Assembly: GCA_019456225.1 (NCBI GenBank)
Contig: VRUI01000029.1
Coordinates: forward strand, 1 to 54,128
Length of the DNA stretch: 54,128 bases
Origin: Planctomycetota bacterium
Lineage (GTDB): Bacteria > Planctomycetota > Phycisphaerae > Sedimentisphaerales > Anaerohalosphaeraceae
Reading direction: 5' to 3'
Shown here: positions 2,241 to 18,199 of the stretch, in pieces
Layout: each line of letters opens with the position of its first letter
Position numbering within the stretch: position 1 is the stretch's first letter
Notes under the pieces: generated by a model
Database searches by the model: none
Seen by the model: the letters and a program-made list of their open reading frames with translations, nothing else
What the model was told of the DNA's origin: nothing
Position numbers and translations under genes: made by a program

Positions 2241-3461
2241 TTATTGAGTTCTGCTAAAAAGAACCTGAATTTGTATTTGTTCTCCCTTTTCTAACCGGTC
2301 AATGCCTTCCGGTATTTTGATAAGCGCATCTGCATCTGCCTGTGACTGTAGACGGCTTTTAATTTTCATGGGCTCAACGAACAACTGTCCGTCTTTTCTC
2401 ACCAGCCTGGCATAATGAAATTGAGTCCAGTCTTTGTCACCTTTTAAAGTTTCAGCCAAAGCAGCGGTTTTGATCTCAAAAGGGATTGGAGTTTTTCCCG
2501 CAAGATGCAGTATGGCAGGCAGGGCGATCTGCATGAAAGCCATAGCATTGGACGGAGGTCCTCCCGGAAGACAAAAAACTGTTTTTCCTTTTAACAGAAT
2601 CGCCGCCACTGCTTTACCCGGGCCCATCCTGATACGATGAAAAATTATCTCTCCACCCATATCCTCAAAAGTCCTGACGGTTAAATCCCTTTCGCTTTTC
2701 CAGGCCCCGCCGCTGGTTATAATGACATCAACATTTTCCAGCATAGTTTCTATAGCCGAATGAATTTTCTCAACATGATCAGGTACAGTTGAAATTCTGG
2801 TATTAATGTGATAAAGTTTCAGCCAGCAAGTCAAAGCCACAATATTGCTCGCATAGAGTTGTCCCTCCTTAAGAGATTCGCCCGGCCTTACTACTTCATC
2901 GCCTATAGCTATGATGCCGACACGGGGTAACGGATGGACGCTAACCGAGGAGATTCCGCCTGCGGCCATAAAACCAGCTTTAGCCGGCATCAGTATTTCA
3001 CCCGGCAATGCGATGCAATCGCCTTTTACAACATCGTGCCCTTTTCTAAGTATATTTCTTCCTACACCGGTATCACGATAGCACAATATCTCGTCGCCAG
3101 TTACTTCTGTAAACTCGCATGGAATTACAGCATTTGCGCCTTGTGGGATTTTCGCTCCAGTCATGATCTTAACGGCTGATCCTGGGACGACTGCGTTGTC
3201 TTGCTGGCTTCCGGCAAACACACTACCAGTAACTTTAAGTTTAACAGGGGAGCCTTGGGACGCATTGTCCAGGTCCTGGGAAACTACAGCATATCCATCC
3301 TTCGTAGATGACGAAGCCGACGGGCAATTGACCGCGGCGATACATTTTTCGGCAACAGCCAATCCTGCCGCCTTATCTATCTCAATATCTATTGGAGGCA
3401 GCGGAGTCAATCGCTGCAATGTTTTGCTCAATGCCTCTTCAAAGCCAATGTCATATTTCAT
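2241..3461 (-). CDS. moeA: Molybdopterin molybdenumtransferase MoeA
   Basis: MoeA inserts molybdate into adenylylated molybdopterin, the last common step of molybdenum cofactor synthesis, in the cytoplasm. The 406-aa length is normal. Visible motifs are the early segment 'PSASSSTKDGYAV', 'IMTGAKIPQGANAVIP', the 'ITSGGAWKSERDLT' segment and 'CLPGGPPSNAMAF', in the order expected of MoeA. The GGAW and GGPPSN versions replace the commoner SGGVS and PGNPVS. I recall this variant from anaerobic delta-proteobacterial enzymes. Its ATG overlaps the stop of the upstream permease by 4 bases (ATGA), showing translational coupling in a molybdenum operon. Confidence 0.9.
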   Translation of the reverse strand: MKYDIGFEEALSKTLQRLTPLPPIDIEIDKAAGLAVAEKCIAAVNCPSASSSTKDGYAVVSQDLDNASQGSPVKLKVTGSVFAGSQQDNAVVPGSAVKIMTGAKIPQGANAVIPCEFTEVTGDEILCYRDTGVGRNILRKGHDVVKGDCIALPGEILMPAKAGFMAAGGISSVSVHPLPRVGIIAIGDEVVRPGESLKEGQLYASNIVALTCWLKLYHINTRISTVPDHVEKIHSAIETMLENVDVIITSGGAWKSERDLTVRTFEDMGGEIIFHRIRMGPGKAVAAILLKGKTVFCLPGGPPSNAMAFMQIALPAILHLAGKTPIPFEIKTAALAETLKGDKDWTQFHYARLVRKDGQLFVEPMKIKSRLQSQADADALIKIPEGIDRLEKGEQIQIQVLFSRTQ

Positions 3462-4627
3462 TTTTCTGTAAATCCGTTAATTATTTTCGCTTTTATTAAG
3501 TAATATAAAACAGTTCCGACAATAAGCCCTATAACAAAACCGTAAGGTATTCCGCCGGAGATAAGTCCTACAAGAAGGGCGACAGTTAAATCTGACTTCG
3601 ATTCAGATACATCACGTATCATCATCATAAGGGCCAAACCTTCAAATATCAATATTACTCCTAACACCGGCAACGGGAAAATGTGAATGATACTATCAAA
3701 TCCATTGCCCAGGAAAAACCCTAAGAAAAGAAATAATGAGCCATAAATAATAACAGACCCGCCGGTTCTCCCCCCAAAAGTATAATGCCCGGCCATTCCT
3801 CCGGAACCATGACATACAGGGATACCGCTGAAAAACGGGCTTATCATATTTATAAATGAATATGTAAAACTTATTTTATGCACCGAAACAGCTTTGGCAG
3901 GGAAATAATCCTCTGTTAGCTGTCTTGTGGCCAAAATAGAGTTGCCTATTGAAAGAGGTATTTGCGGTATAGCAAGCAATACAAAACCAGTTAAGATGTC
4001 AGCCCATATAGGCAGATTAAATTTTGGCAGGTTAAATCCTACACTACTTACCAGTTCGATCTTGTCATGATTAAAAATTAAAGCATACACCAGGCCTAAA
4101 AGTATAACAAATAACGCGGCGGGATATTTGCGGTTTCCAATAAAAAAGATGATTATCAAAAAAGCAATGATGGCTAACCATAACCCATTTACTCCGTCTG
4201 CCCAGATATATTTTTTTATAGCCACCAGCAAAGCGAGCTTTAACCCCAATCCAAATTGTATTCCCCTGATGACGCACTTTGGAATAACTTTGGCTATCCA
4301 GTCTATCAGGTGGGTTACGGTTAATAAAAATATTGTAATGCCAATAGCTAAACCTGCGCCATAAAGTATTTTTGGGGTTATTTTCCCGGTCGCTCCCTGG
4401 GCAATGACGATGGCGGCCATAGCTTTTAAAGGCTGGACGGGCATTGGCATTCTGTAAAAAAATCCGGTAAAAATCTGCATAGCTCCGAACATTATTAAAA
4501 CGCTTGGGGCGTGAAGACCAATCGCCAAAATCATACCAATAAGAAGAGGTAAATCCGTACCAATGTCACCGACTGAACCGGCTAATTCATTTCGGTCAAA
4601 TTTAACTTCCCTCAAAGATTTAAACAT
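3458..4627 (-). CDS. MOT1-type molybdate (or sulfate) permease
   Basis: A 389-aa polytopic membrane protein of the MOT1 branch of the SulP-related transporters. Two family signatures are present: GSVGDIGTDLPLLIGM near the N-terminus and PMPVQPLKAMAAIVIAQG about 45 residues later. About ten hydrophobic helices follow. I chose the internal ATG at 4627 because the family motif begins shortly after it and GGGA precedes it; the longer frame to 4699 lacks a binding site. It lies between mobBA and moeA and overlaps moeA, so molybdate is the likely substrate. Sulfate cannot be excluded. Confidence 0.8.
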   Translation of the reverse strand: MFKSLREVKFDRNELAGSVGDIGTDLPLLIGMILAIGLHAPSVLIMFGAMQIFTGFFYRMPMPVQPLKAMAAIVIAQGATGKITPKILYGAGLAIGITIFLLTVTHLIDWIAKVIPKCVIRGIQFGLGLKLALLVAIKKYIWADGVNGLWLAIIAFLIIIFFIGNRKYPAALFVILLGLVYALIFNHDKIELVSSVGFNLPKFNLPIWADILTGFVLLAIPQIPLSIGNSILATRQLTEDYFPAKAVSVHKISFTYSFINMISPFFSGIPVCHGSGGMAGHYTFGGRTGGSVIIYGSLFLFLGFFLGNGFDSIIHIFPLPVLGVILIFEGLALMMMIRDVSESKSDLTVALLVGLISGGIPYGFVIGLIVGTVLYYLIKAKIINGFTEK

Positions 4628-4752
4628 AAAATAACAATTCCCGTTTATTGAAGTTACTATCTTCTGCGAATATACGCCCCAATGCATTTCTAAAACCAAT
4701 GCGCTCTGCGGCAGGCATCCCTGTTGACTTTAAAATAGTTTCAAATACTTAA

Positions 4753-5889
4753 TCAACCGGCAACACCCTTTTTCTCTTTAAGAAAATGCAGGTAATCATT
4801 CATAGTATTAAGATTCTTGAGTTTTAAAGCGTCAGGAGATTTAAGGTACTTAACTTTGCGTTTTTTAAGAGGCTCTAATATTTTATATTTTCCCAGACTT
4901 ATTGATTCGTCAATTGCAACGAGAAGATCTTTACTATATATCGCAAACATAGGCTCAAAATGAGACGGCCCGGTTTGAGGGATGACAGCATCAAAACCGG
5001 CACATTCTCTGATCAAGTGTCGTACAAGACTTATATTAACGTCAGGTATGTCGCAGGCAATTACAAAATTTATCTGGTTTCGTGACACCCTTAATGCCGA
5101 AGCGATTCCCATAAGCGGACCCTTCCCTGCAGCTTCATCCTTAACAACCTCCACGCCGTCAATACTGTGCTGGGCTATATTGTTGGAACTGACTAATATT
5201 TGATCGAAATGCGGCCGAAGCTGGGCAAAGATATGTTCTATTGCAGGTATCCCATTAATTGGGAGTATGCTTTTATCTTTCCCCATACGCCTGCTTTTGC
5301 CTCCTGCCATAATGACAGCTGTTGCCGGCATTTTATATACCCATTTGCCATCGATCAATTCGATGTCATCAAGAGTGATGTCAAAATTGCTGCCATCAAA
5401 AAGTACTGTTCTGTCGGCATGTTTTTCCACACTCGCTGCGGTAGGTTTGGACTTTTCTGAGCCAACGGCTTTGAACATAAAAAACAAATCCGGTTCGACG
5501 ATCGATCGCAGAGAGTTAGACTCACATACGCAAACCGCGTCTGCCCCGATCGCCGCCTGCAAAGCAATTACCCCTTCCTTAAGATGAGGCTTGAGTACCC
5601 TTAACCAATAAACCTTCTTAGCTCCTGCCGACAGCATCCTGCATGTATCTTTGTCGGGTTGGCTGTTTGTTTCCTCAGTGATGCAGAAATTGCTCTCAAG
5701 TGTTCCGCAAACACCACAGCCGCCGGCGCCGCGATGACAACCGGCATTGGCATGCTCTATCGTGGTTACTTTTATACCAATGATATTATGCTGCGAACCA
5801 AATTTCCTGATCAATGAGCAGGCAAACTCTGTCTTGCCGACATTCCTGTCACCTGCACCAATCATTATCATACCTGGAATCTTAATCAT
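4753..5889 (-). CDS. MobB-MobA fusion, molybdopterin-guanine dinucleotide synthesis
   Basis: One 378-aa polypeptide with two domains. Residues 1 to about 180 are MobB-like: a P-loop GAGDRNVGKT at 11-20, followed by a cluster of cysteines (51, 58, 61, 69). From about 187 the chain is MobA: VIMAGGKSRRMGKDKS is the GTP-binding signature of the guanylyltransferase that attaches GMP to molybdopterin. The bis-MGD product is the cofactor needed by the molybdoenzyme encoded nearby. The four-Cys insertion between P-loop and the rest of the MobB part is unusual and could bind metal. The start has AGGGT upstream. Confidence 0.88.
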   Translation of the reverse strand: MIKIPGMIMIGAGDRNVGKTEFACSLIRKFGSQHNIIGIKVTTIEHANAGCHRGAGGCGVCGTLESNFCITEETNSQPDKDTCRMLSAGAKKVYWLRVLKPHLKEGVIALQAAIGADAVCVCESNSLRSIVEPDLFFMFKAVGSEKSKPTAASVEKHADRTVLFDGSNFDITLDDIELIDGKWVYKMPATAVIMAGGKSRRMGKDKSILPINGIPAIEHIFAQLRPHFDQILVSSNNIAQHSIDGVEVVKDEAAGKGPLMGIASALRVSRNQINFVIACDIPDVNISLVRHLIRECAGFDAVIPQTGPSHFEPMFAIYSKDLLVAIDESISLGKYKILEPLKKRKVKYLKSPDALKLKNLNTMNDYLHFLKEKKGVAG

Positions 5890-6384: not shown

Positions 6385-6768
6385 CTAAATCTTAGGAAGT
6401 TTGCAGCAACCAGGCGAACCTTTCACTAGACCGCATTTAGAGCAGGTTTCCTGATCAGGCTTGCAGCATAATTCCCCGCCTTTTATTTGACCGCAGTGAC
6501 TGCAAATCGCAGCAGCAGTTGCATCTTTGGGTATTTTGCAACAACCTGGCGAACCTTTTGTAAGCCCGCAACTTCCACATTTAGCCTGGTCTGGTTTACA
6601 GCAAAGATCAGAACCTTTTATTTGGCCGCATTTTACACAGAGTGCTACAGAATCAGATGTATTTTTGGCAACATCATCGGTGCTTTTTTTGCAACCCTGC
6701 ACAAATATAGTCACTCCTGTTAATGTCAACGCTATCATCAATGTCAATATATATTTCCGCTTATTCAT
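6385..6768 (-). CDS. Cys-rich tandem-repeat lipoprotein
   Basis: A 127-aa protein with a lipoprotein signal peptide (hydrophobic 7-25, modified Cys at 26). The mature part holds two copies of a 36-residue unit (44-79 and 89-124), each made of two half-repeats of the form C-x2-C-G-x2-K-G-x3-C-C-K. Sixteen cysteines result: 44, 47, 56, 57, 64, 67, 76, 77, 89, 92, 101, 102, 109, 112, 121, 122. The pattern suggests binding of metals or of thiol-reactive metalloids. It starts 12 bases after the upstream gene with AGGAGA before the ATG, so it belongs to the reductase operon. Arsenite binding is an inference from that setting. Confidence 0.85.
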   Translation of the reverse strand: MNKRKYILTLMIALTLTGVTIFVQGCKKSTDDVAKNTSDSVALCVKCGQIKGSDLCCKPDQAKCGSCGLTKGSPGCCKIPKDATAAAICSHCGQIKGGELCCKPDQETCSKCGLVKGSPGCCKLPKI

Positions 6769-6780
6769 TCTGGTCTCCTG

Positions 6781-7434
6781 TTAAAATTTAATTACGTAGT
6801 TAAGTTTTAATGTGAAAACATCTTCCTTGCCTGACTCAGAAGGGAAGGACATCCAGCTTTCCAGAAGAAAATTACTACCCAGATCGTAAATAAAACCTGC
6901 ACTTGTCGTAGTATCTCGCTGATCATTAGTCTGAATAATATCACTTCGAAGAGTAAAATCTCGATCGAGGAGTGTGAATGTTTTGTCGATTCCTGCAAAG
7001 AAACCTTCATTGTCATTCTGGGTTGTTCCACCAAAGTGCAGCCGACAGAAGCTTGTGCTATAGCTTAATACACTGTAGGGAGATTCGCTGCCTGCCTTGT
7101 CACGATCACCAAGGTTACTAACTCCTAGTGCTAAAGCAAGGCCATCGGACAATTCAAATCTCATCTTCGCCTGACCGACGAGATTTTCATGAGAAGATTT
7201 TTCTGGAAAGATACGGCCATCCAATCCGACTTCAACATTCTTCATAAGGCCATATTTAAACCCGGTAAAATGTTCTGTCTTGCTGTTTTTCGCCATATTG
7301 TTGAAATATTGAAATACCAGAACCCTCTCAAAAACCACATCCGCTGTCGGAATATTATTCAAACCAGTGGGGGTAGCCCAGACAGAAGCAGTAATTAAGG
7401 AACACAAAATAACACAAACGATAAACTTTTTCAT
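6781..7434 (-). CDS. Outer-membrane beta-barrel-like protein, 217 aa
   Basis: A 20-residue signal peptide (MKKFIVCVILCSLITASVWA) precedes a chain of alternating polar and hydrophobic strands that ends in a C-terminal phenylalanine (LNYVIKF), typical of outer-membrane barrels. Segments such as 'FKYGLMKNVEVGLDGRIFP' resemble YjbH- or DUF-type barrels, but no exact family is recognised. I chose the ATG at 7434 because GGAG lies 9 bases upstream and the signal peptide starts there; a longer frame to 7503 has neither. It lies between the porin and the Cys-rich lipoprotein. Confidence 0.75.
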   Translation of the reverse strand: MKKFIVCVILCSLITASVWATPTGLNNIPTADVVFERVLVFQYFNNMAKNSKTEHFTGFKYGLMKNVEVGLDGRIFPEKSSHENLVGQAKMRFELSDGLALALGVSNLGDRDKAGSESPYSVLSYSTSFCRLHFGGTTQNDNEGFFAGIDKTFTLLDRDFTLRSDIIQTNDQRDTTTSAGFIYDLGSNFLLESWMSFPSESGKEDVFTLKLNYVIKF

Positions 7435-7485
7435 CTCTATAGACTCCAAATTTAATTTCTTATTGATTGTATGACATGCAACAAA

Positions 7486-7506
7486 CCCATGGATGCACTC
7501 CATGGG
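7486..7506 (-). terminator. Hairpin between porin and second barrel gene
   Basis: CCCATGGA (7486-7493) and TCCATGGG (7499-7506) form an 8-bp stem with a 5-base loop. On the minus strand it is followed by TTTGTTG, a weak T-tract. It may reduce rather than stop transcription into the two small downstream envelope genes, or stabilise the upstream mRNA. Confidence 0.4.
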
Positions 7507-7572: not shown

Positions 7573-8835
7573 TTAGAACTTGAAAACCAAATCCCATTGT
7601 GCGCGTTTAAAGTTGTCATTATTGACGCCGGCTTCGTTATCGAAGTATGTAAATCCTGTCTGAACATTCTTAGTAAGCTGGTACTTAAAGAAAACCTTAT
7701 GGCCTCTTCCGTCAGTTCCGCCATCAATGAAATCAGAATCATTTAAGGCACCAATTACAGCATCAGGATCGATATCGCGGTAATTGTAACCGGCCTGCCA
7801 GGTGCCGGGGTTTTTGGCCTTGTTCAATTTGACGCCCAGCAAATACCCTTTGTTCAAACTGCTTGGTGCGGCTACATTTTCAACATGAGTGCCATAAAGT
7901 GCTACAGGCATATCATATGCAGTGAAACCGTATTCCCCAAAGACTTCGAGAAGGTCATAATCATAGTCGAATGTACCATTAGGTGATGCCACCCCATCGT
8001 TGGAGTTGCCCTTGAATCCGCTAAGACCGTTTAATTTGTTACCCTGGATATTGCCATAGTCATAATAACTGACTCCGCCTGTCAAGTGAGTTCCGTCTTC
8101 AAACTTGTGTTTCAGCAAACCCTGAAAACCAAAAACACTTGTGTCTGCATCTCCAGATTCTTCATTAACCCAGAAACCACCGGCATTGAAATAAGCGGTT
8201 GTATCGCTATTAAGACTTGTCGTATACTTGACTGCGCCACCTTCAGGATTAACGTCGCTATCCCAGATAAGCTGATTCTTGCCGGCGTTGTAGAATGGGT
8301 TTTTCATTTTACCCATAATAACATTCAAACCTTCAATACTCTCAGGATGATAATCGGCATACGCAAGGTCCAGCCAAATCTGTTTCGAGGTAAAGCCGCT
8401 ATCCAGCGTCTGATTGGTTGAAGTAGCATTTGATCCACTTCCACTTGCGATTCGAAACCCAACATCCCACTCATCATTAAGGACGCTTTTTAGCCCGATT
8501 CTGGCACGAATACGATTTCTGTTTCGCTTTGAGACAGCTCTGTTGTCATCCATGTTCTCAAGTCTAAATCTGAAATCGCCGAACAACGTGGTTCTCTGTA
8601 CCCATTCCGGAACTCCAGAAATTTCGGCCTTCTTTTCGGTGATTGCCTCTGAGACCATCCGGTCTACAACTTTCTGATCAACCCCGGTCTGCTTAGCCTC
8701 AAGTCTCTCAAGCTGCTTCTGCATCGCAGCCATTTGAGCCTTAAGATCGCTAAGCTCATCTGCTTTTGCGATTTGTGGGGTCACGATCATTATTGCTATC
8801 GCGACCAACACTAGTTTCAGTGTCCATTTTTTCAT
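7573..8835 (-). CDS. Putative porin with N-terminal coiled coil
   Basis: A 420-aa protein with a signal peptide (1-25), a short coiled coil (ELSDLKAQMAAMQKQLERLE, about 27-46) and then repeated amphipathic strands ending in LVFKF. This matches the 'putative porin' family of about 400-450 residues. Such porins let small solutes cross the outer membrane. The N-terminal coiled coil often supports trimer or peptidoglycan contacts. It lies 196 bases after the TorD gene in the same direction, so it may share the sigma54 transcript, and would then serve entry of the oxyanion substrate (inference). Confidence 0.82.
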   Translation of the reverse strand: MKKWTLKLVLVAIAIMIVTPQIAKADELSDLKAQMAAMQKQLERLEAKQTGVDQKVVDRMVSEAITEKKAEISGVPEWVQRTTLFGDFRFRLENMDDNRAVSKRNRNRIRARIGLKSVLNDEWDVGFRIASGSGSNATSTNQTLDSGFTSKQIWLDLAYADYHPESIEGLNVIMGKMKNPFYNAGKNQLIWDSDVNPEGGAVKYTTSLNSDTTAYFNAGGFWVNEESGDADTSVFGFQGLLKHKFEDGTHLTGGVSYYDYGNIQGNKLNGLSGFKGNSNDGVASPNGTFDYDYDLLEVFGEYGFTAYDMPVALYGTHVENVAAPSSLNKGYLLGVKLNKAKNPGTWQAGYNYRDIDPDAVIGALNDSDFIDGGTDGRGHKVFFKYQLTKNVQTGFTYFDNEAGVNNDNFKRAQWDLVFKF

Positions 8836-9031: not shown

Positions 9032-9646
9032 TCAACCCTGGCTACTGAGTATATTTTCTAAAAGTACACTCATGTCCTCTTGCACAAAATCATTGGTCTG
9101 TTGAGACAATTGCATATAAAACTTTGTTTGCGAGTTTTGTTGCACATTTTCAGCGAATTTCGGCAACCACCTGACAAGATGGTTCTGCAAAAAAGCAGAT
9201 TGCTTGTGTAAGCATGCCTGTGCCTCTTGCAAATTCGAATCTTCAATTGCCTTGATCTGCTTAGTTATAAGGAAATACATAAACTCCAATTCCATCGCGA
9301 TATGGTCCGGAGCGTCCTTGATAACTATATCCAGGCCCTCTTTTTCATACCTAACTTTGACATCGGCTGTGGAATCGCCCATAAGTTTGCCATCTTCAAG
9401 ATAGAAAGAACCGTATGGGGGAGCAAGAAGTTTGTAGGGTCCGACAAACAACCTGGCAAAGTCAACTTCTAATAACATAAGCTCAGCTGCAGGAGGCACA
9501 GAGCTAGCCAATTCGACAAAATTCGTCTCTGTTTGCGAAAAATCCGCAATCTTCTGCATAAGTTCTTCATCCGGCAAATAGTAACACTCAGACAGAAGCT
9601 TGTAGTTATCAGCTCTTTGACAAAGTTCGCTTAATAAATAATCCAC
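9032..9646 (-). CDS. arrD: TorD/DmsD-family chaperone for the molybdoenzyme
   Basis: A 204-aa all-helical protein of the TorD family (MDYLLSELCQRADNYKLLSE; 'FARLFVGPYKLLAPPYGSFY' is the conserved core, with the family's typical P-P-Y-G-S-x-Y). These cytoplasmic chaperones bind the Tat signal of a molybdoenzyme and hold it until the cofactor is inserted. The start codon is GTG, 4 bases after the catalytic subunit's stop region, preceded by AAAGG. Its position directly after the catalytic gene makes that enzyme the client. The name arrD follows the arr reading of the cluster. Confidence 0.85.
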   Translation of the reverse strand: MDYLLSELCQRADNYKLLSECYYLPDEELMQKIADFSQTETNFVELASSVPPAAELMLLEVDFARLFVGPYKLLAPPYGSFYLEDGKLMGDSTADVKVRYEKEGLDIVIKDAPDHIAMELEFMYFLITKQIKAIEDSNLQEAQACLHKQSAFLQNHLVRWLPKFAENVQQNSQTKFYMQLSQQTNDFVQEDMSVLLENILSSQG

Positions 9647-9650
9647 TGTT

Positions 9651-12197
9651 TCAGACCTTTACTACTTTAACTCGGGTAACTCCGTAAAAAGCGGTAGCCC
9701 CACTTAGCCGGTCATAATCGGCTGGAATAATATCATTGTTATTACCACCAAGCGGTGTTTTGCCATATTCTTTGGAGGCAACTCTGCCATAAGCCCAGTG
9801 TCCCTGACCGTAACATTTTGCAACGGTACCAGGCCTGACACCTTCCCATAACTTTGCATGACATTCGAGCTTGCCGGTCTTAGATACTAATCTAATACTA
9901 TCACCATCTTTGATACCGAGTTTGTCAGCGTCAATCGGATTTAGTTTGGCCACGTCATCATATGCTACATCGCCAGGATCGAGATCCTTGAACTCCTGAT
10001 ACCATGGACAGTTAGCAGATCGGCCTTCACGGTTAAGTCTGGACTTGTAATCGACATGAACAAATGGATATTCTTTTTCATCGCCCCACATATACGGTTC
10101 TTCGTAATGGGGGATAAACGCTTTCTCACCTCTTGCCTGATATTTACATGTTTCGAGAATATCATCGACGGTAGTTTCATGTTTATCTGCATGTGCGGTA
10201 AGAGCTGCTTTAAGAGTTTCACTATAAAATTCGAACTTCTTGGTTTTGGTCTTCATATTACCCCAGCGTTTTTTGAAGGGGTATGGATCTGAATTCCAAA
10301 CACCGACTTTTGCGAATTCGGCCCAGCCGCTGAATTTGTCGCCGCCTTGATACACTGCGGGATCCCACAATTTATGAGTTGCGTGTTTTAATGAATAAAG
10401 AGCAAATTCCGCGGCGTTTGTCGGAGCTTTACCTGTCTCAGGATCCTTATACTCTTTGTAGTGGTCCAAAAGGTTGCTAAACCCTCTTTCCTGAAGTTTT
10501 TCGGCAATAAGCCACGGAATTTCTGTTTCGTCGATCCTGACATCCCAAACCGGGTCGATCACAGGTTCCAGGAGTGTAACATGACGATAGGTGTTGCCCA
10601 TAGACTTGACATAACCCCATTTTTCAAACATGTGGTGTACCGAGGGTAAAACAATGTCGCAGAAATGCGTAAACTCAGATGCGTTAGTCGTAAGATGAAC
10701 AAGGAAAGGTATCTTGCTCAATGCCCTTTCCCAACGTTCCGACTGAGGACAAGAGAAGGCAAAGTTGTTCATATAAGCAATAGCAACCTTGATCTCATTG
10801 GGATCTTCATTCAGTATGCCCTCTGCGGCATTATTTGTCACAACACCGCCGCCTGGTTTGCCTTTGGATAAAACCGGGAATCCTTTAGTGCCGCGATGGT
10901 CGATTTTCTTGTGTTTCTTCCCGGCTTTGGCAGTATCATCAATGAAATCATCTGGTGCAGGGAAAGATTGCGTGTACTCTTTATTTCCCTTGAGAGTTCC
11001 GCCAACATTATCCACGGAACCTACAAGACCATTAAGTGCATGGGCAGCCATGGCAGTATAACCGCCTCTAACCTGCATAGCCGGTCCACCGCCAACCCAG
11101 CAGATAGCGTGCGGGGCTGCAGTACCGTAATCTGTAGCAACATTTATGATTTGCTCTACGGGTAAACCGGTCCTCTCTGCGGCCCATTGAGCAGTCTTAT
11201 CTTTCAGTTCAAGATTCCACCACTTTACTAAACCGTTAGTATGCTTTTCAGTGAAGTCTTCTTCGCTAACGGTCTGGCCAACAACAAATTTATTTACACC
11301 ATCGGTGAAATCGCCAACGAAATCCTTGTACCACAATCCTTTAGTTAGGATTATGTGAGCCATAGCAACAGCAAGGGCACCATCCTGGCCGGGCTTGATC
11401 GGCATCCACTCACCGGCTTTGGCAGCCGAAGCGGAAAATCTCGGGTCTACAACGGCAACGTTGGCCCTGTCGAGAGCGTCACCCCATGCACTTAGATAAT
11501 ACGAAACCTGCCTGTTTGCCGAAAGCGGGTCAGCACCCCAGAGAAGAATATATCGGGCGTTAAGCACGTCATACTGCCTGTAACTCCATTCTCCCTCTGT
11601 GAAATAAGGCCCGAATTTTTCGGCTTCTGCACAAATAGCACTATGCGATATATTGTTAGGAGAGCCGATTATCTTGGTCATACGGTCGTAAAGAATATCC
11701 CGCATATACGAATAACGTCCCCTCATAAGCATGTACTTGTGAGTCTCGTTATTTTTGCGCAGATCCATGATTTTGTCTGCAATTGTATTGAGAGCCTCAT
11801 CCCATGTAATGGGGACGAATTTCGGGTCTTCGTTTCTTCCCTTCTTCGGATTTGTCCGTTTCATAGGTACCTTCGTACGATCCGGATCGTAAACCTGCTG
11901 GAGGCTGAGATGACAGCGGGAACAGCAGTTTCCGAGGTTAACCTTAGAATTGGGGTTACCCCTGACTTTAATGGCTCGCCCATCAACTACATAGACCTGT
12001 ACGGAACACCATGAAGTGCAGCCCTGACAGGTAGTAGATTTCCATACCCCTGATTCTGCGGGGCTGTTGGGTTTAGAGCCCTTAGCAAAGGCTCTCAGTG
12101 AAGGTTTGAAAACTGTGCTCACTGCAGCGACGGCAGCAACGGCTGATGCAGTTTTAATAAACCCCTTGCGAGTAATTGTTTTTTTGTTATCTTTCAT
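9651..12197 (-). CDS. arrA: Respiratory arsenate reductase-like catalytic subunit ArrA
   Basis: An 848-aa bis-MGD molybdoenzyme of the DMSO-reductase family, exported by Tat. The N-terminus has a Tat-like signal (TITRKGFIK, with RK for RR). A [4Fe-4S] motif C-x2-C-x3-C-x27-C is at 57, 60, 64 and 92. RGRY lies at 159-162, then ISHSAIC gives a cysteine molybdenum ligand at 189, with Lys194 and Tyr206. Spacings Arg161-Cys189-Lys194-Tyr206 equal those I recall for Arg165, Cys193, Lys198 and Tyr210 of Shewanella ArrA. RGRY is the motif reported to separate ArrA from arsenite-oxidising ArxA (GRGWG). Start chosen at 12197 because AAGGGA precedes it. Thiosulfate, polysulfide or selenate reductase are the alternatives. 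Confidence 0.8.
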   Translation of the reverse strand: MKDNKKTITRKGFIKTASAVAAVAAVSTVFKPSLRAFAKGSKPNSPAESGVWKSTTCQGCTSWCSVQVYVVDGRAIKVRGNPNSKVNLGNCCSRCHLSLQQVYDPDRTKVPMKRTNPKKGRNEDPKFVPITWDEALNTIADKIMDLRKNNETHKYMLMRGRYSYMRDILYDRMTKIIGSPNNISHSAICAEAEKFGPYFTEGEWSYRQYDVLNARYILLWGADPLSANRQVSYYLSAWGDALDRANVAVVDPRFSASAAKAGEWMPIKPGQDGALAVAMAHIILTKGLWYKDFVGDFTDGVNKFVVGQTVSEEDFTEKHTNGLVKWWNLELKDKTAQWAAERTGLPVEQIINVATDYGTAAPHAICWVGGGPAMQVRGGYTAMAAHALNGLVGSVDNVGGTLKGNKEYTQSFPAPDDFIDDTAKAGKKHKKIDHRGTKGFPVLSKGKPGGGVVTNNAAEGILNEDPNEIKVAIAYMNNFAFSCPQSERWERALSKIPFLVHLTTNASEFTHFCDIVLPSVHHMFEKWGYVKSMGNTYRHVTLLEPVIDPVWDVRIDETEIPWLIAEKLQERGFSNLLDHYKEYKDPETGKAPTNAAEFALYSLKHATHKLWDPAVYQGGDKFSGWAEFAKVGVWNSDPYPFKKRWGNMKTKTKKFEFYSETLKAALTAHADKHETTVDDILETCKYQARGEKAFIPHYEEPYMWGDEKEYPFVHVDYKSRLNREGRSANCPWYQEFKDLDPGDVAYDDVAKLNPIDADKLGIKDGDSIRLVSKTGKLECHAKLWEGVRPGTVAKCYGQGHWAYGRVASKEYGKTPLGGNNNDIIPADYDRLSGATAFYGVTRVKVVKV

Positions 12198-12247
12198 TCT
12201 GAAATCCCTTCTTTTCTTTGATTCCATGGTAAATTGTCATAATAGTT

Positions 12248-13117
12248 TTACACACTTCCCTTGGTTTTTTTGGTGGCACCAGGATTGAATTCTCTAACGT
12301 AAAAGACTTTTGGTTCTGTCCCAAGATGTTCTTTCAGTCTCCAAGGCCGGTATTTGGACAATAGTTTGCTGGCGGCACTGTTGGGATCATTTAGGTCTCC
12401 CATGACTCTGGCATCGGCAGGACAGGACATAACGCAATGAGGAAGCAATCCTTTTGTAACCCTGTGATCACATAGTGTGCATTTTTCCACAATACCTTTG
12501 TATCTCAGACCCGAACCCGGAGTGGATTTTTCTCTGGCATCATTATAGTTAGGAATTACGTTTCCTTTGACTTTCTCTACAAGTTCTTTAGGCGAAGCGG
12601 TGCAGCCTTTGATTAAAGCATCTTCGCTTTTCCAATATGCATGTGGTTTCCTGGTATGCATAGAAATGACACCATAGGGACACATAGCTAAGCAGGTTCT
12701 GCATCCGATGCACTTTTTCGGAGCGTGCATCGTGATATTTCCGTATCCTTTATGCATTGCTTTGGTTGGGCAACCCTTGACACACGGAGCATTTTCGCAT
12801 TGATTGCAGAGTGTGGGGATATACTCGAATCTGACATTTGGATATTTACCTACAGTTCTGCTTTTCTTGTTTGACCAGGCGATGCCACTCTGGACATTGT
12901 TCTCACTTTTGCAGGAAAGGATACATCCGCCACATCCTGTACAACGCTGGAGATCTATTACCATAGCCAACCTTTTGCTTTTTGAAGGGCTCTGCTTAGC
13001 CGAAGCTGTCTGAGCACCTGCCAAAACGGCGGCACCGGCCCCACCTGCTTTGATCAAATTTCTTCTTGATATTTTTTTCTCTGATTTTTTTTGATTTTCT
13101 TGTTCGGGAAATTTCAT
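12248..13117 (-). CDS. arrB: Four-cluster Fe-S electron-transfer subunit (ArrB/PsrB type)
   Basis: A 289-aa ferredoxin-like subunit carrying electrons between the membrane quinol subunit and the catalytic subunit in the periplasm. Four cysteine groups bind [4Fe-4S] clusters: 'CTGCGGCILSC', 'CNQCENAPCVKGCP', 'CIGCRTCLAMCP' and 'CTLC...CVMSCP'. All 16 ligands are visible. It has its own Tat signal (ISRRNLIKAGG, Arg18-Arg19). Many partners of this kind are instead carried across with the catalytic subunit, so two Tat signals in one complex deserve note. AAAGGAG precedes the ATG. It is 16 bases after arrC and 50 bases before arrA. Confidence 0.85.
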   Translation of the reverse strand: MKFPEQENQKKSEKKISRRNLIKAGGAGAAVLAGAQTASAKQSPSKSKRLAMVIDLQRCTGCGGCILSCKSENNVQSGIAWSNKKSRTVGKYPNVRFEYIPTLCNQCENAPCVKGCPTKAMHKGYGNITMHAPKKCIGCRTCLAMCPYGVISMHTRKPHAYWKSEDALIKGCTASPKELVEKVKGNVIPNYNDAREKSTPGSGLRYKGIVEKCTLCDHRVTKGLLPHCVMSCPADARVMGDLNDPNSAASKLLSKYRPWRLKEHLGTEPKVFYVREFNPGATKKTKGSV

Positions 13118-13133
13118 TAATTATCTCCTTTAT

Positions 13134-13982
13134 CTATACTAGCTGGCCGCCAACTACTACCATATAACGCATAGTGAATATTCCGATTAGTACTAATATT
13201 GATGCAATAATCTGCAAAAAGGCGCTTGATTTTGGCCTTAGCAGTATAACGACAGGTACAATTCCTCCGAGTATGATCTCAACTCCAAGGAAAAGAAAAC
13301 CGATTCCGCCGGAGAACAGCGCTTTGGCAACAGCGATGGATTCTGTACCTCCGTTAAAGAGCATTACAACTTCTGTAAGAACCAGACCGATTTCGGCTAT
13401 GACCATCCATGCGACAAGTCTTCCGAGTCTTGAGAGAAGGGGCATATTTTTGGGTTTTGCCGAAAATAACATTACAGCTGCAATGCCGGAAATAACCGCT
13501 CCATTGACAAACAATACCGGCAGCAAAGTAGAGTGCCAGAGGAGTTTGTCAGGTGCCCTTGCTATATGAACAGCAGTATACAGAGCTGTAAACAGGGCAA
13601 AGAATAATCCCACACAGCCAACTATCTTTGCAAACCGCTCTTTGCCTAAGTACAAAAGAACGACAAATATCAAATTCAGCAAACCAAAGATATTTAATAG
13701 CCATACCCCCCAGGAAAGCATGCTATACGGATTAAAAGCGGTAAAAACCCTCCATGCTCTAAATGGATTGCCAAGATGAATGAGGAGCATGAACATTCCT
13801 ATCCCTAACGCAAACAGAGATAACACTGCACCAGTTTTGGCCAATGGTTTAAATTCCTGTTTCCACCAGTAATTTGCCACCACAGAAAACATGTAGGCTC
13901 CAGCACTGATACCGCCGAAAAAGAAATACGTCACGATCATCCAATCGTAAGCCAGGTGAACAACTGCTCCTTGTTCAGGCAT
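13134..13982 (-). CDS. arrC: NrfD/PsrC-type membrane anchor and quinol dehydrogenase
   Basis: A 282-aa integral membrane protein with about eight hydrophobic helices and the NrfD-family opening (YDWMIVTYFFFGGISAGAYM). Such subunits oxidise menaquinol and pass electrons to the Fe-S subunit. AAAGGAG sits before the ATG. It is the first gene behind the sigma54 promoter at 14139-14154, with a leader of about 145 bases, and leads an arrC-arrB-arrA-arrD order. NrfD-type partners also occur in polysulfide, tetrathionate and nitrite reductases, so this gene alone does not decide the substrate. Confidence 0.85.
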   Translation of the reverse strand: MPEQGAVVHLAYDWMIVTYFFFGGISAGAYMFSVVANYWWKQEFKPLAKTGAVLSLFALGIGMFMLLIHLGNPFRAWRVFTAFNPYSMLSWGVWLLNIFGLLNLIFVVLLYLGKERFAKIVGCVGLFFALFTALYTAVHIARAPDKLLWHSTLLPVLFVNGAVISGIAAVMLFSAKPKNMPLLSRLGRLVAWMVIAEIGLVLTEVVMLFNGGTESIAVAKALFSGGIGFLFLGVEIILGGIVPVVILLRPKSSAFLQIIASILVLIGIFTMRYMVVVGGQLV

Positions 13983-14138: not shown

Positions 14139-14154
14139 AGCAAAACATGTGCCA
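14139..14154 (-). promoter_or_regulatory. Sigma54 promoter of the arrCBAD operon
   Basis: On the minus strand the sequence is TGGCACATGTTTTGCT, an exact match to TGGCAC-N5-TTGCW with GG and GC ten bases apart. The predicted start point is near 14128, about 145 bases before the arrC ATG. The neighbouring gene encodes a sigma54-dependent activator with a GAFTGA loop, so promoter and activator agree. Confidence 0.88.
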
Positions 14155-14241: not shown

Positions 14242-14258
14242 AATAATCGTCGATTATT
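14242..14258. promoter_or_regulatory. Palindrome, likely enhancer site for the activator
   Basis: AATAATCG-T-CGATTATT is a perfect 8-bp inverted repeat centred about 122 bases upstream of the predicted sigma54 start point. That is the usual distance for binding of an NtrC-type activator. Assignment to the neighbouring regulator is inferred from position. Confidence 0.6.
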
Positions 14259-14380: not shown

Positions 14381-15757
14381 TTAGACAGGAGCGTCAAGTT
14401 TTGATACTTTATATTGTAAGCTCGATCGAGGAATGTTAAGCAACGAAGCTGCTTTAGCAAGATTCCCCTCTGCTTTGGCAAGTGCCCATTTAACCAGTCG
14501 ATTCTCGAGTCCATCTACCGTTTTGGGCAGATCAATCTGGTCAATGTAGTCAGTGTTTATCGTGACAGTGGAAGTATCTGGCTCGAAAAACTCCTTTGGT
14601 AACTGGTCTATTGTTATGTGTCCATCTCTCGACAGTACCAACATGCGTTCAATAATATTCTCAAGTTCACGGACATTGCCCGGCCAGGAATAATTGGTTA
14701 GTTTCTCAATTACCTCTTCATCAATTCTAACTTCAGGATGATTTAAGCGAATGGCAAATCGGCCCATAAAGTATTCACACAATAGTGGAATGTCGGTTTT
14801 CCGTTCACGCAGCGGCGGCAAATACAAAGGGATAATATTTAGCCGAAAATACAAATCTTCCCGGAACTGGCCATCTTCAACCAGAGAGGATAGATTCTTC
14901 TTGCTTGCAGTGACTAGTCTGAAATTAACATTTAAAGTTACCTCACTTCCAATTCGCTCTAATTGGCGTTCCTGAATAACCCTCAAAAGCTTTACCTGTA
15001 AACTAAGAGGTATGTCATCAATGTCGTCAAGGAATATTGTACCGCCGTCAGCTAATTCGAATCTGCCTGTTCGTTGCCGGCTGGCACCGGTGAAAGCTCC
15101 TTCTTCGTATCCAAATAATTCAGCTTCAATTAGTTCACTCGGCAATGAGGCGCATGAAACCGCGATAAAAGGGCCGTTAGAACGAACACTACTTTCATGA
15201 ATAAGGCGAGCTACACATTCTTTTCCAGTACCGGAGACACCATGAATAAGGACATTGCTGTCGACCGTTGCCAATGTGTGTATCTTGCTCAAGACATCCC
15301 TCATTGCTGCTGATTTTCCAATCAGTTTTGTCTCAGTTCTATCTTGCCCCAATTGTTTCCTGAGTGTCTGATTTTCTTCTACAATATCTCTATAATTCAT
15401 CAAACGATCTAACTTAAGTATCAGTTCTTCCGTACTAAATGGCTTTTGAAGATAGTCAAAAGCTCCCAGTTTCATAGCTTCAATTGCCGTCTCTACCGTG
15501 CCGAATGCCGTCATCACAATTACTGCCTGATTCGGATTCTTATTCTTGATTTTTTTCAAGAAGGTTATTCCATCCATCCCAGGCATTCGAATGTCAGTTA
15601 TAATCACATCGTATGTGTTTTTGATAAGAGCATCGTCGGCAGCAAGTGGATTATCGTAGACGTCTACAATAAAACCTTCTTCTCGTAGTTGATCCTCCAT
15701 CACAACTCGTTTAATAGGTTCATCGTCTAAAAGTAATAACCTTGTTTTCTTTGACAT
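14381..15757 (-). CDS. NtrC-family response regulator, sigma54 activator
   Basis: A 458-aa regulator with three parts. The receiver domain (1-120) has the acidic pair DD at 11-12 and the phosphoacceptor Asp55 in ITDIRMPG. The AAA+ domain carries Walker A 'GVSGTGKE', the sigma54-contacting loop 'GAFTGA' and 'FLDDIDD'. The C-terminal Fis-type helix-turn-helix contains 'NLAKAASLLNIPRSSLQYKV'. I chose the ATG at 15757, giving MSKKTRLLLLDDE; the frame overlaps the kinase gene by 38 bases. It should drive the promoter at 14139-14154 when phosphorylated by the adjacent kinase, as AioR and ArxR do in arsenic systems. Confidence 0.9.
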   Translation of the reverse strand: MSKKTRLLLLDDEPIKRVVMEDQLREEGFIVDVYDNPLAADDALIKNTYDVIITDIRMPGMDGITFLKKIKNKNPNQAVIVMTAFGTVETAIEAMKLGAFDYLQKPFSTEELILKLDRLMNYRDIVEENQTLRKQLGQDRTETKLIGKSAAMRDVLSKIHTLATVDSNVLIHGVSGTGKECVARLIHESSVRSNGPFIAVSCASLPSELIEAELFGYEEGAFTGASRQRTGRFELADGGTIFLDDIDDIPLSLQVKLLRVIQERQLERIGSEVTLNVNFRLVTASKKNLSSLVEDGQFREDLYFRLNIIPLYLPPLRERKTDIPLLCEYFMGRFAIRLNHPEVRIDEEVIEKLTNYSWPGNVRELENIIERMLVLSRDGHITIDQLPKEFFEPDTSTVTINTDYIDQIDLPKTVDGLENRLVKWALAKAEGNLAKAASLLNIPRSSLQYKVSKLDAPV

Positions 15758-17186
15758 CGCATATTCCTTTTTTACCACTATTTATAAGCTTTATTACGAA
15801 TTTCGCTCCACTGCCCTTGACTTTTGCTTCTGCCAAAAATAATTCTCCACCGCATTTTCGGATCAAACTTCTTGACACGGCCAATCCTAATCCGGTCCCC
15901 CCTTTAGATGTTTTAGTGCTAAAAAAAGCTTCAAATATCTTTTCACTAATCTGCTTGCTAATACCAGGGCCGTCATCGGTAACTGTTATAATAACATTAT
16001 CAGCATCCGATGAGATTTCAATATCTATTTTACCGCCTTGCGGTGATAATGCATCTGCCGCATTTAACAGAAGATTCATTACTGCTTGACCGACTGCAAC
16101 AGCATTACCAATTACGTGATAGTTTTCCTTACACAATATTTTGACAGTCATATTTCGTTTCCTCATAGAACCGTCTAACAATGCAACAGTGTTATTGATG
16201 ACTTCGCAGAGACCAAACACTTCTTTGAAGTCGGTGCCGTCACTGCGTGAAAAACCAAGTAATTGACGGCCTGTTTTTCCGATTCGCTCAAGACCATCTT
16301 TTAATAATGGCATATACTTTTGCACCTTTTGAGGGTTATCGGCATTCTTTTCCAGGTATCTTGTTATTTCAATCAAACCATCTAAAGGGTTATTTATTTC
16401 ATGTGCAACTTCACTAGCTAACTCGCCTACAGAAGCCAGCCGTTCCGTAGTTATCAGCTTTTGTTCGTAATCCCTTCTTATTTGCTCTGCATCTTGTAAC
16501 CTTGTTATCATTTGCTTTAGTATGGCCGCAAACTCCTGTATCTCCGATGTCGATCCCGTATTTATGTTCTCCAGTTCGGGCCATTCCCCTTGGCCCTTCT
16601 TGAGGGCAATGGCGATTTGATTGAGAGGCCTGGCAACTCCTCGGCCTATCAGAACCGCAATGGCCATAGAAACTACAGATATAATTGCAAAGGTTATACT
16701 CAAGTTCAATATGCTCTTATAAGCAAACATACCAACGGGATCACGATTAAGACCCAAATGCAGACTTCCAAGATCTCCCCCAAAAAGTGGAGTGGATATG
16801 TTAAGACAGGAACCAATATCCTCAAAAATAAACTTAATAGTACTTTCCTCTTTTCTTTGGGAAACAAAATCTATTAGTTCCCTGGGAACTCCTTTGGAGT
16901 ATGTCGAAGCAAGAGGCCGTTTGTTCTTGTTCAAAACGAATATATAGATTATATTTTCATCGCTATACTTTGTAGCGGCAAGGGCATCATTAAGGGAAAG
17001 CCTGTCATCGGTAAGAACCATTGGATTAATGCGCAGCCTTAAATTCTCTACAAGGGAACGACCTCCCTGTGTTAACAATTTTTCTTGCTCTCCCGGAAAT
17101 CCAATGTATAAGATTATTGCTACTACAATGAATAAAATTGAAACTGATGTAGCTCCAAGAAATATTATTTGATTCGCCAATTTCAT
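15720..17186 (-). CDS. Membrane sensor histidine kinase
   Basis: A 488-aa kinase with a first membrane helix at about 8-29, a periplasmic part of about 130 residues, a second helix at about 158-181, a HAMP linker, and a kinase core. The H-box is SEVAHEINNP with the phosphorylated His262; the N-box has Asn375; G-boxes are DDGPGIS (404-410) and GTGLGL (430-435). It starts 13 bases after the binding-protein gene and overlaps the regulator, so all three are one operon. The periplasmic part probably contacts the PhnD-like protein rather than the ligand directly, as in AioXSR-type systems (inference). Confidence 0.9.
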   Translation of the reverse strand: MKLANQIIFLGATSVSILFIVVAIILYIGFPGEQEKLLTQGGRSLVENLRLRINPMVLTDDRLSLNDALAATKYSDENIIYIFVLNKNKRPLASTYSKGVPRELIDFVSQRKEESTIKFIFEDIGSCLNISTPLFGGDLGSLHLGLNRDPVGMFAYKSILNLSITFAIISVVSMAIAVLIGRGVARPLNQIAIALKKGQGEWPELENINTGSTSEIQEFAAILKQMITRLQDAEQIRRDYEQKLITTERLASVGELASEVAHEINNPLDGLIEITRYLEKNADNPQKVQKYMPLLKDGLERIGKTGRQLLGFSRSDGTDFKEVFGLCEVINNTVALLDGSMRKRNMTVKILCKENYHVIGNAVAVGQAVMNLLLNAADALSPQGGKIDIEISSDADNVIITVTDDGPGISKQISEKIFEAFFSTKTSKGGTGLGLAVSRSLIRKCGGELFLAEAKVKGSGAKFVIKLINSGKKGICDVKENKVITFRR

Positions 17187-17199
17187 GCATTAACCACTT

Positions 17200-18138
17200 T
17201 CATTTTGGATTGCCGACAGTATCCCATATTTCATGTGCCGAATCATATTCATGTGATTGCGGCATTCTGAAACGTTCTATTCCAATACCGTCCAATATTT
17301 CACGGCCTTTCTCGTCCTGGTGCATTGTCAGTAATATTTCCCGCAATTGTTCTACTGTGCTTTTGGGCAATCCGCTTGGCACTACTACTGGCGGAACTCC
17401 AAAAGGGGCGCTCTCCCAAATAACTCGCAGATGTTCTTTCAATTCGGGATGGGCTTCAAGAAAGGAATAATATATCAATGAATCTACGCCTGCACCATCG
17501 ACTAAACCTTTAGCAACGGCATGAAGCGAGCGATCATGGCCTCCCGTATAAATAATCTTACTGAAATAAGTCTTAGGATCCTTTCCCTGCTTTAGGAAAA
17601 ACCAACGGGGGACGATACAACCGGTGTTGGACTCCGGATCGGTAAATGCAAAACTTCTATCCTGCAAGTCTGTAAAATTATTAATCGTTGAATTATTATT
17701 AACCACAAACAAACATCGATATTCGAGGTTATTCTTAAACTCAGGCGCTGCTACCAACTCAATAGTTTTTGCACGGGAACAGGTTATGTATGTGCCGGTA
17801 CATACAAGAGCTATATCAATTTTTTTTTCTTCGAGAAGAATACGTACGTCAGAATATGACGGCCTCAAAACCATTGATGCTTCATTGCCAAATTGCCCGG
17901 CAACATAATCGATTAATTTTTTATAAGTTACCCACGTTTCTTCAGTACTAACCATACTTGCTATGGCAAAGCGAAATTTATCGCTCTCTTCTGTGATCGG
18001 CTTAACCGCAATCCAATCAGCAAAAGAGATACGCAAGGGCTTGTTGTGGGTATATAATTTAATCAGCCCCACTAATGATAGAACCGCACCCAAAACCACC
18101 ACAAGTATCAAAAAAGCAATTTTTCGTTTTTGTTTCAT
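17200..18138 (-). CDS. PhnD-like periplasmic oxyanion-binding sensor protein
   Basis: A 312-aa PhnD-family binding protein with an N-terminal hydrophobic helix (7-28) that may stay as an anchor. No ABC-transporter genes adjoin; the next genes are a kinase and a sigma54 regulator. This arrangement matches the AioX/ArxX three-component sensors for arsenic oxyanions. Ligand-pocket loops carry cysteines: Cys113 and Cys120 in 'LVCTGTYITC', and Cys174 in 'NTGCIVP', where PhnD has its Ser-Thr-Ser-Gly anion loop. The ATG at 18138 is chosen because the promoter's -10 box overlaps the more distal GTG, which would leave that start out of the transcript. Confidence 0.75.
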   Translation of the reverse strand: MKQKRKIAFLILVVVLGAVLSLVGLIKLYTHNKPLRISFADWIAVKPITEESDKFRFAIASMVSTEETWVTYKKLIDYVAGQFGNEASMVLRPSYSDVRILLEEKKIDIALVCTGTYITCSRAKTIELVAAPEFKNNLEYRCLFVVNNNSTINNFTDLQDRSFAFTDPESNTGCIVPRWFFLKQGKDPKTYFSKIIYTGGHDRSLHAVAKGLVDGAGVDSLIYYSFLEAHPELKEHLRVIWESAPFGVPPVVVPSGLPKSTVEQLREILLTMHQDEKGREILDGIGIERFRMPQSHEYDSAHEIWDTVGNPK

Positions 18139-18170
18139 TCCGCAAGCCAGGTTAAAATACATTTCTAACC

Positions 18171-18199
18171 AGTATACCACATCAATAAGTTATTGTCTA
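18171..18199 (-). promoter_or_regulatory. Sigma70-type promoter of the sensor operon
   Basis: On the minus strand TAGACA (18194-18199) and TATACT (18171-18176) are separated by exactly 17 bases; each differs from consensus at one position. The predicted start point near 18164 gives a 26-base leader to the ATG at 18138. Constitutive expression of the sensor genes and sigma54 control of the enzyme genes would fit a standard signalling layout. Confidence 0.65.

Follow-up and report, generated by a model that had tools for sequence, protein, structure and literature searches.

Organization of the arr locus

A 54,128-nucleotide stretch (positions 1-54,128) of contig VRUI01000029.1 of a Planctomycetota bacterium (assembly GCA_019456225.1), hereafter called the window, carries a gene cluster for a putative respiratory arsenate reductase (Arr). 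Its core consists of four genes transcribed from the minus strand in the order arrC-arrB-arrA-arrD, which encode a membrane anchor, an iron-sulfur subunit, the catalytic subunit and an assembly chaperone (Table 1). An initial annotation of this DNA had assigned coordinates to these four open reading frames (ORFs), and all of them were found there. The regulatory half upstream, which encodes a sensor of the ArrX type together with a kinase and a σ54 activator, was absent from that annotation. In the direction of transcription, the complete locus reads arrX-arrS-arrR-σ54 promoter-arrC-arrB-arrA-arrD, followed by genes for a porin, a 240-amino-acid protein (p240), a small cysteine-rich protein, a MobA-type protein, a MOT1-family transporter and MoeA.

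The C-B-A-D order with its NrfD-type anchor had been presented as a distinguishing feature. The order itself is real, but the anchor does not set the cluster apart: NrfD-type ArrC proteins occur in other arr operons, in which the usual order is C-A-B, or A-B without C (PMC2500031). What is unusual is the position of arrB before arrA. The window shares C-B-A-D with related loci from its own order and class, with two Omnitrophota loci (L013, L018) and with one Chloroflexi record (L077); B-A-D is also found in a third Omnitrophota locus (L029) and in a record that lacks a phylum, L035, which falls with the Omnitrophota loci. In a single-contig genome of the same order (L105), the arrX-arrS-arrR genes, the σ54 promoter, p240, C-B-A-D and mobBA are all present.

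Translation of arrA from the ATG at 12197 gives 848 amino acids, and a longer ORF of 858 amino acids is also present. ArrB contains 17 cysteines, 16 of which fall into four groups of four, a spacing that predicts four clusters. A simple hydropathy scan of ArrC detected eight hydrophobic stretches, two of them overlapping.

Table 1. Genes and sequence elements of the arr locus in the window, in the direction of transcription.
Feature	Position	Strand	Remarks
arrX, predicted periplasmic oxyanion-binding sensor, ArrX group	17200-18180; alternative start 18138	minus	
arrS, membrane sensor histidine kinase	15720-17186	minus	HisKA just under cut-off, HATPase_c; AtoS-like; N-terminal membrane segments
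arrR, response regulator, AtoC/NtrC type	14381-15778	minus	receiver, σ54 activation domain, HTH_8 (Pfam); real start likely at 15757 (start context)
Perfect palindrome AATAATCGACGATTATT, candidate ArrR site	14242-14258	minus	about 90 bp upstream of the promoter
σ54 promoter TGGCACATGTTTTGC	14140-14154	minus	-24/-12 type, TGGCAC-N5-TTGC; between arrR and arrC
arrC, NrfD-family membrane anchor	13134-13982	minus	282 amino acids; PF03916 121 bits
arrB, iron-sulfur subunit	12248-13117	minus	289 amino acids; NF041715 297 bits, under its cut-off of 450
arrA, predicted respiratory arsenate reductase catalytic subunit	9651-12197	minus	848 amino acids; molybdenum-bis(pyranopterin guanine dinucleotide) and one 4Fe-4S cluster
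arrD, TorD/DmsD-family assembly chaperone	9032-9646	minus	204 amino acids; PF02613 103 bits; TorD model 76 bits, under its cut-off
Outer-membrane porin (Porin_5), candidate arsenate entry route	7573-8835	minus	PF16930 160 bits
p240, 240-amino-acid protein	6781-7503	minus	arr-linked
MobA-type molybdenum cofactor guanylyltransferase	4753-5889	minus	longer N-terminal part; PF12804; NF011056 137 bits, under cut-off
MOT1-family molybdate transporter	3458-4699	minus	PF16983 182 bits
MoeA-type molybdopterin molybdotransferase	2241-3461	minus	PF03453, PF00994, PF03454

ArrA groups with respiratory arsenate reductases

The catalytic subunit shares 59% identity with the solved ArrA chain of Shewanella sp. 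ANA-3 (6cz7), against which it scores 1137 bits. The NCBIfam ArrA model NF041714 matches it with 1270 bits over 841 residues; the same model gives 1705 bits for Shewanella ArrA, 438 and 431 bits for two ArxA references and 166 bits for PhsA. The ArxA references belong to the named arx clusters on pORIO3 of Cereibacter azotoformans and pSCD of Sulfuricella denitrificans. At scores of 1270 and 1137 bits, a chance match of the predicted protein is not an issue.

The iron-sulfur motif C57-x2-C60-x3-C64-x27-C92, the RGRY motif (R159-Y162), Cys189, Lys194 and Tyr206 were all located at the spacings given in the initial annotation, and in the alignments Lys194 and Tyr206 occupy the columns of Shewanella Lys198 and Tyr210 (offset +4). 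We take Arg165 of Shewanella ArrA to be an arsenate contact and the cysteine in the column of Cys189 to be the molybdenum ligand. In a table of motifs with 97 rows, the window and Shewanella share RGRY and the His, Ser, Cys, Lys and Tyr positions. Both ArxA references have YGRGWG, with Val or Glu in place of Lys194. Every Shewanella residue named in PMC10654088 (Cys61/64/68/96, Tyr166, His189, Ser190, Lys198 and Tyr210) has its counterpart in the window. The rule that XGRGWG denotes ArxA and (R/K)GRY denotes ArrA, to which the annotation had referred, is stated in PMC6549141; the window protein carries the ArrA form and lacks that of ArxA.

Phylogeny led to the same placement. In a tree of 47 rows, the 848-amino-acid protein lies among 39 ArrA rows including Shewanella (support 98/100), whereas the ArxA references, two groups of the Methanoperedens family, PhsA and YnfE all fall outside this clade. 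Because the tree program warned of long branches, a second tree of 29 rows was built with PhsA and YnfE omitted; there, the ArrA clade has support of 100/100, and a topology constrained to unite the window's clade with ArxA was rejected by the approximately unbiased (AU) test (p-AU 9.7e-8). The rows closest to the window are three others from its own order or class (99/99 and 100/98 support). Shewanella ArrA is the sole characterized ArrA in these trees, which do not include TtrA, SrdA, SrrA and AnrA; PsrA was compared as a fold match only. Two loci, L048 and L078, were kept out on account of split reading frames. The arrA gene of L048, from the Olavius algarvensis Delta 4 endosymbiont, has one in-frame TGA; being codon 429 of the matched sequence, it does not coincide with the molybdenum-ligand position.

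A structural model of ArrA computed from 56 aligned sequences (mean predicted local distance difference test score, pLDDT, 89.2) was compared with solved structures using Foldseek and VIA-align. The best match was 6cz7, with a template modelling (TM) score of 0.97 by target for both chains, and the overlay aligned 799 residues at a root-mean-square deviation of 1.5 Å (Z 58.1). This overlay is weaker than it seems because AlphaFold may have had 6cz7 in its training set, and it is the sequence identity that carries the argument.

The second-best fold match was polysulfide reductase (Z 35.7), a member of the same cofactor family, so we considered whether the cluster encodes a polysulfide, thiosulfate or tetrathionate reductase. 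The profile scores speak against such a sulfur-oxyanion enzyme, with 242 bits for PhsA (cut-off 694) and 60 bits for TtrA (cut-off 1750) compared with 1270 for ArrA, as do the motifs, the position of PhsA outside the ArrA clade in the 47-row tree and the gap between Z 58.1 and 35.7. We rejected this identity from the scores, motifs and PhsA placement, and regard it as extremely improbable.

An anaerobic arsenite oxidase of the ArxA type, catalyzing the reaction in the reverse direction, was also considered, since ArxA and ArrA are of one lineage and the two arx clusters likewise contain an X-S-R module, an NrfD-type anchor and a TorD chaperone. They differ from the window in the YGRGWG motif, in the A-B-C order, in a twin-arginine signal on ArxA instead of ArxB and in their separate clade. 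They also contain an extra 4Fe-4S gene (arxB2 in the naming of PMC6549141), and no second ArxB2-like gene was found among the cluster genes scanned. Together with Lys194, the 431-438 bits of the ArxA references on the ArrA model and a sensor closer to ArrX than to ArxX (see below), motif, tree and AU test led us to reject ArxA identity, which we consider very unlikely.

The ArrA/ArxA-like proteins from the family of the Methanoperedenaceae metagenome-assembled genome (MAG) G752 fall into two groups. L093 and L094 show RGRY followed by Asp, score 604 and 468 bits and are sister to ArrA with weak support. L095-L101 have SGRN, retain the Lys, score 390-463 bits and fall with ArxA in the 47-row tree but conform to neither motif rule.

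The export signal has apparently moved to ArrB

The signal motif of the window ArrA reads TRKGFIK, with Arg-Lys in place of the twin arginine, and ArrB bears a twin-arginine signal of its own (SRRNLIK). The twin-arginine translocation (Tat) signal of ArrA has been called fully conserved (PMC2500031). Because its ArrA has no twin arginine, we class the cluster as a variant form; both the signal on ArrB and the position of arrB before arrA distinguish it from Shewanella.

We scored 90 clusters in which arrA and arrB lie within 600 bp of each other, drawn from the best 80 of 311 ArrA loci and from the loci of the genome searches, using a simple twin-arginine pattern and uncurated starts. In the 77 clusters with the order A-B, which include two arx clusters and nine of the Methanoperedens family, ArrA carries the twin arginine in 75; the other two (L069, L079) are N-terminal fragments. 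No credible signal was found on ArrB in these 77, the one pattern match (L055) being due to an overlong start. Among the 13 clusters with the order B-A, 12 have the twin arginine on ArrB, including L012, whose ArrB is split over two frames with the signal on the first piece. In the thirteenth (L007), arrB is frameshifted and its first fragment contains SRRTFLK. The twin arginine of ArrA is gone in seven of the 13 (the window, L011, L012, L105 and three Balneolota) and present beside that of ArrB in the other six. The Omnitrophota clusters and Chloroflexi L077 share arrB before arrA and the ArrB signal with the window but differ in that their ArrA keeps the twin arginine, so both subunits are signalled. 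Two loci of the order B-C-A (L023, L033), which exceed the 600-bp limit and stand outside the 90, also have twin arginines on both subunits.

When gene order was mapped on the tree for 43 of its 47 rows, B-C-A being scored as B-A, it changed at least four times; the 13 B-A clusters thus represent fewer independent cases than their number suggests. From these sequences, we infer that ArrB has taken over as leader of the folded ArrA-ArrB pair.

An ArrX-type sensor and a σ54 promoter precede the structural genes

Among solved structures, the window's X protein matched ArrX best (6x6b, 172 bits; AioX, 108 bits). In a quick tree, whose rows were picked by similarity to this protein and for which a long-branch warning was issued, it falls on the side of the solved ArrX and is separated from AioX and two ArxX proteins, with a support of 99 in the Shimodaira-Hasegawa-like approximate likelihood-ratio test. 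We therefore regard it as an ArrX-type sensor, and predict that it binds arsenate. Homologues of X were detected in 36 of 80 arr loci (L011-L090), many of whose flanks are cut by contig ends.

Between arrR and arrC lies the only exact match to the σ54 -24/-12 consensus on either strand of the window, where 0.13 exact matches would be expected. If one mismatch is allowed, four matches are found against 3.5 expected. Since these are no commoner than by chance, only the exact match carries weight. The same element occurs at the same position in L105. The palindrome further upstream was not found in L105, which weakens its candidacy as ArrR site. In a planctomycete of another class (L106), a σ54 promoter-like site at position 10827 precedes an arrC that lies upstream of arrA, with a σ54 activator gene adjoining.

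The arrangement resembles the ArrXSR system of Chrysiogenes arsenatis, in which an oxyanion-binding protein, a kinase and a regulator are encoded beside arr (PMC5908839). There, ArrX binds arsenate in the micromolar range, ArrR is CitB-like without an AAA+ domain and no RpoN promoter was found (PMC5908839). In contrast, the ArrR of the window is of the AtoC type and is accompanied by an exact -24/-12 promoter, an arrangement shared with aio and arx systems.

The presence of this sensor also bears on the substrate. ArrAB and AnrA have both been named as Sb(V) reductases (PMC11521347), so substrates can overlap, and a close relative of ArrA with antimonate or another oxyanion as its main substrate has to be weighed. 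We consider it unlikely: the arsenate-contact residues are kept at 59% identity to Shewanella ArrA, an ArrX-type sensor adjoins, and acr3 arsenite pump genes lie near some related clusters (in 14 of the same 80 loci, within flanks again often cut by contig ends). An ACR3 protein over its cut-off is also encoded elsewhere in the window genome.

Neighboring genes

Downstream of arrD, porin homologues were also seen close to arr in L018, L019, L035 and L060. For p240, scans against Pfam and NCBIfam gave no match; its homologues adjoin arr in L105 and L018. The small protein encoded at 6385-6768, after the porin and p240 genes, has repeated CxxCGxxKGxxxCC units and a signal-like start, without a Pfam or NCBIfam match, and is possibly a metal or arsenite binder. 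We propose that molybdate and cofactor would be supplied by the products of the neighboring MOT1, mobA-type and moeA genes.

Host and distribution of ArrA

The window genome comprises 4.45 Mb and is 96% complete. The initial annotation had suspected a planctomycete-like host, and the genome is placed in the same order as the MAG Planctomycetota bacterium MohnsGC08_bin181, the source of locus L011. We rejected a contaminant contig as the explanation: the GC content of the cluster matches its surroundings, and C-B-A-D is present in two genomes of the same order, one of them a single contig.

ArrA was detected in five of 392 genomes sampled from the phylum and in four of 397 sampled from the class. 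Vertical inheritance through the Planctomycetota was rejected when the seven planctomycetal ArrA were constrained to one clade (p-AU 2.8e-103; the grouping was chosen with the tree already known). L012 was counted among them by kinship, its record title, Actinomycetota, being taken as wrong. On the tree, the planctomycetal label must have changed three times or more, and the lack of a single clade points to several acquisitions. We found no report of ArrA in Planctomycetota in the open-licence PubMed Central literature searched, supplements excluded.

Arsenite export and mercury-methylation genes

On another contig of the window genome (C77), arsR, acr3, hgcA and hgcB lie in a row on one strand (L110:5686-8904). 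HgcA scores 423 bits (cut-off 275) and HgcB 131 bits (cut-off 99). Genes of the ars type adjoining hgcAB have been reported (PMC7438021).

In the class sample, HgcA was over its cut-off in three of four ArrA genomes compared with nine of 393 others (p = 8e-5, uncorrected for kinship and habitat). A partial match in G403, a genome of the same class as the window, was not counted as HgcA. Among 331 genomes from a second class, centred on G804, HgcA occurred in 33 of 46 with ArrA versus 112 of 285 others (odds ratio 3.9, p = 5e-5, likewise uncorrected). For this second count, G1104 was excluded from the ArrA-positive genomes since it has two matches of only about 340 bits, G1083 was included on a 262-amino-acid fragment inside a long contig, and four of the 145 HgcA genomes fall under the HgcA cut-off. 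Without G1083, the figures are 32 of 45 versus 113 of 286 (p = 9e-5). HgcA is also present in 32 of the 50 ArrA genomes of L013-L062, a set that is not independent because 27 of its genomes are also in the second class sample. Outside the class, none of four planctomycetal ArrA genomes has HgcA. In two loci, one from a Gracilibacter MAG (L083:9049-17752) and one from the second class (L124:3962-10803), arrA and hgcAB are no more than about 4 kb apart.

These observations raise the idea of a link between arsenate respiration and mercury methylation in these anaerobes, in which arsenite made by Arr would relieve an ArsR-type repressor of arsR-acr3-hgcAB, so that breathing arsenate would switch on methylmercury production. 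We consider this improbable. The evidence consists of co-occurrence and gene neighborhood, which could equally stem from common ancestry or from the sediment habitat that these bacteria share. The literature library searched contained no joint mention of hgcA and arrA, and a broader search gave one possible match.

A model for the arr cluster

Tree, overlay, pocket residues, the adjacent ArrX-type sensor and the ACR3 pump together support the view, already put forward in the initial annotation, of a respiratory arsenate reductase. We propose, at a probability of roughly 0.88, that the cluster encodes a membrane-bound menaquinol:arsenate oxidoreductase, exported by the Tat route mainly via ArrB and controlled by ArrX-ArrS-ArrR and σ54. 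The complex would sit on the outer face of the cytoplasmic membrane, where quinol would be oxidized at ArrC. From ArrC, electrons would travel via the four ArrB clusters and the one cluster in ArrA to reach the molybdenum. Arsenate, the likely substrate judging from sequence, would be held by Arg161, Lys194, Tyr206 and their neighbors and reduced to arsenite. ArrD may keep hold of ArrA for cofactor loading until the folded ArrA-ArrB pair is exported, with the signal of ArrB as main leader because the twin arginine of ArrA has decayed to Arg-Lys. Periplasmic arsenate would be sensed by ArrX and signalled via ArrS to ArrR, which may then fire the σ54 promoter before arrC. Shewanella, with which the window shares fold and pocket residues, differs in having arrAB alone, without an NrfD anchor, and in using the CymA route (PMC2500031).

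Several findings weigh against this model. ArrA stays below the cut-off of NF041714 (1270 versus 1600 bits), and ArrB is also under its NCBI cut-off. No genome in the samples of 392, 397 and 331 reached 1600 bits (matches in 5, 4 and 47), yet Shewanella ArrA passes, which indicates that the ArrA cut-off is narrow. Lys194 alone is not diagnostic, as seven SGRN-type rows of the Methanoperedens family have Lys and two Nitrospirota ArrA rows Asn. With one arginine and a hydrophobic stretch retained, the signal of ArrA itself may still be functional. Finally, the 10-kb flank of L011, the nearest relative (84%), lacks arrX and contains two-component genes that only distantly resemble arrS and arrR, and the σ54 promoter was not seen before arrC of this locus; this mode of regulation is thus not universal.

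The window Arr is not a new kind of enzyme. What is new is the apparent move of the export signal, the ArrX sensor paired with a σ54 activator, and the host. The subunit swap provides a clean test of how a two-subunit enzyme is exported by the Tat route: either subunit may act as leader, and the order of the genes reflects which one does. Carriers like this one are probably missed by NCBI's ArrA model, as may be ArrA proteins from many other lineages. The release of arsenite from sediment is a matter of health. The association of arr with hgcA is directly testable.

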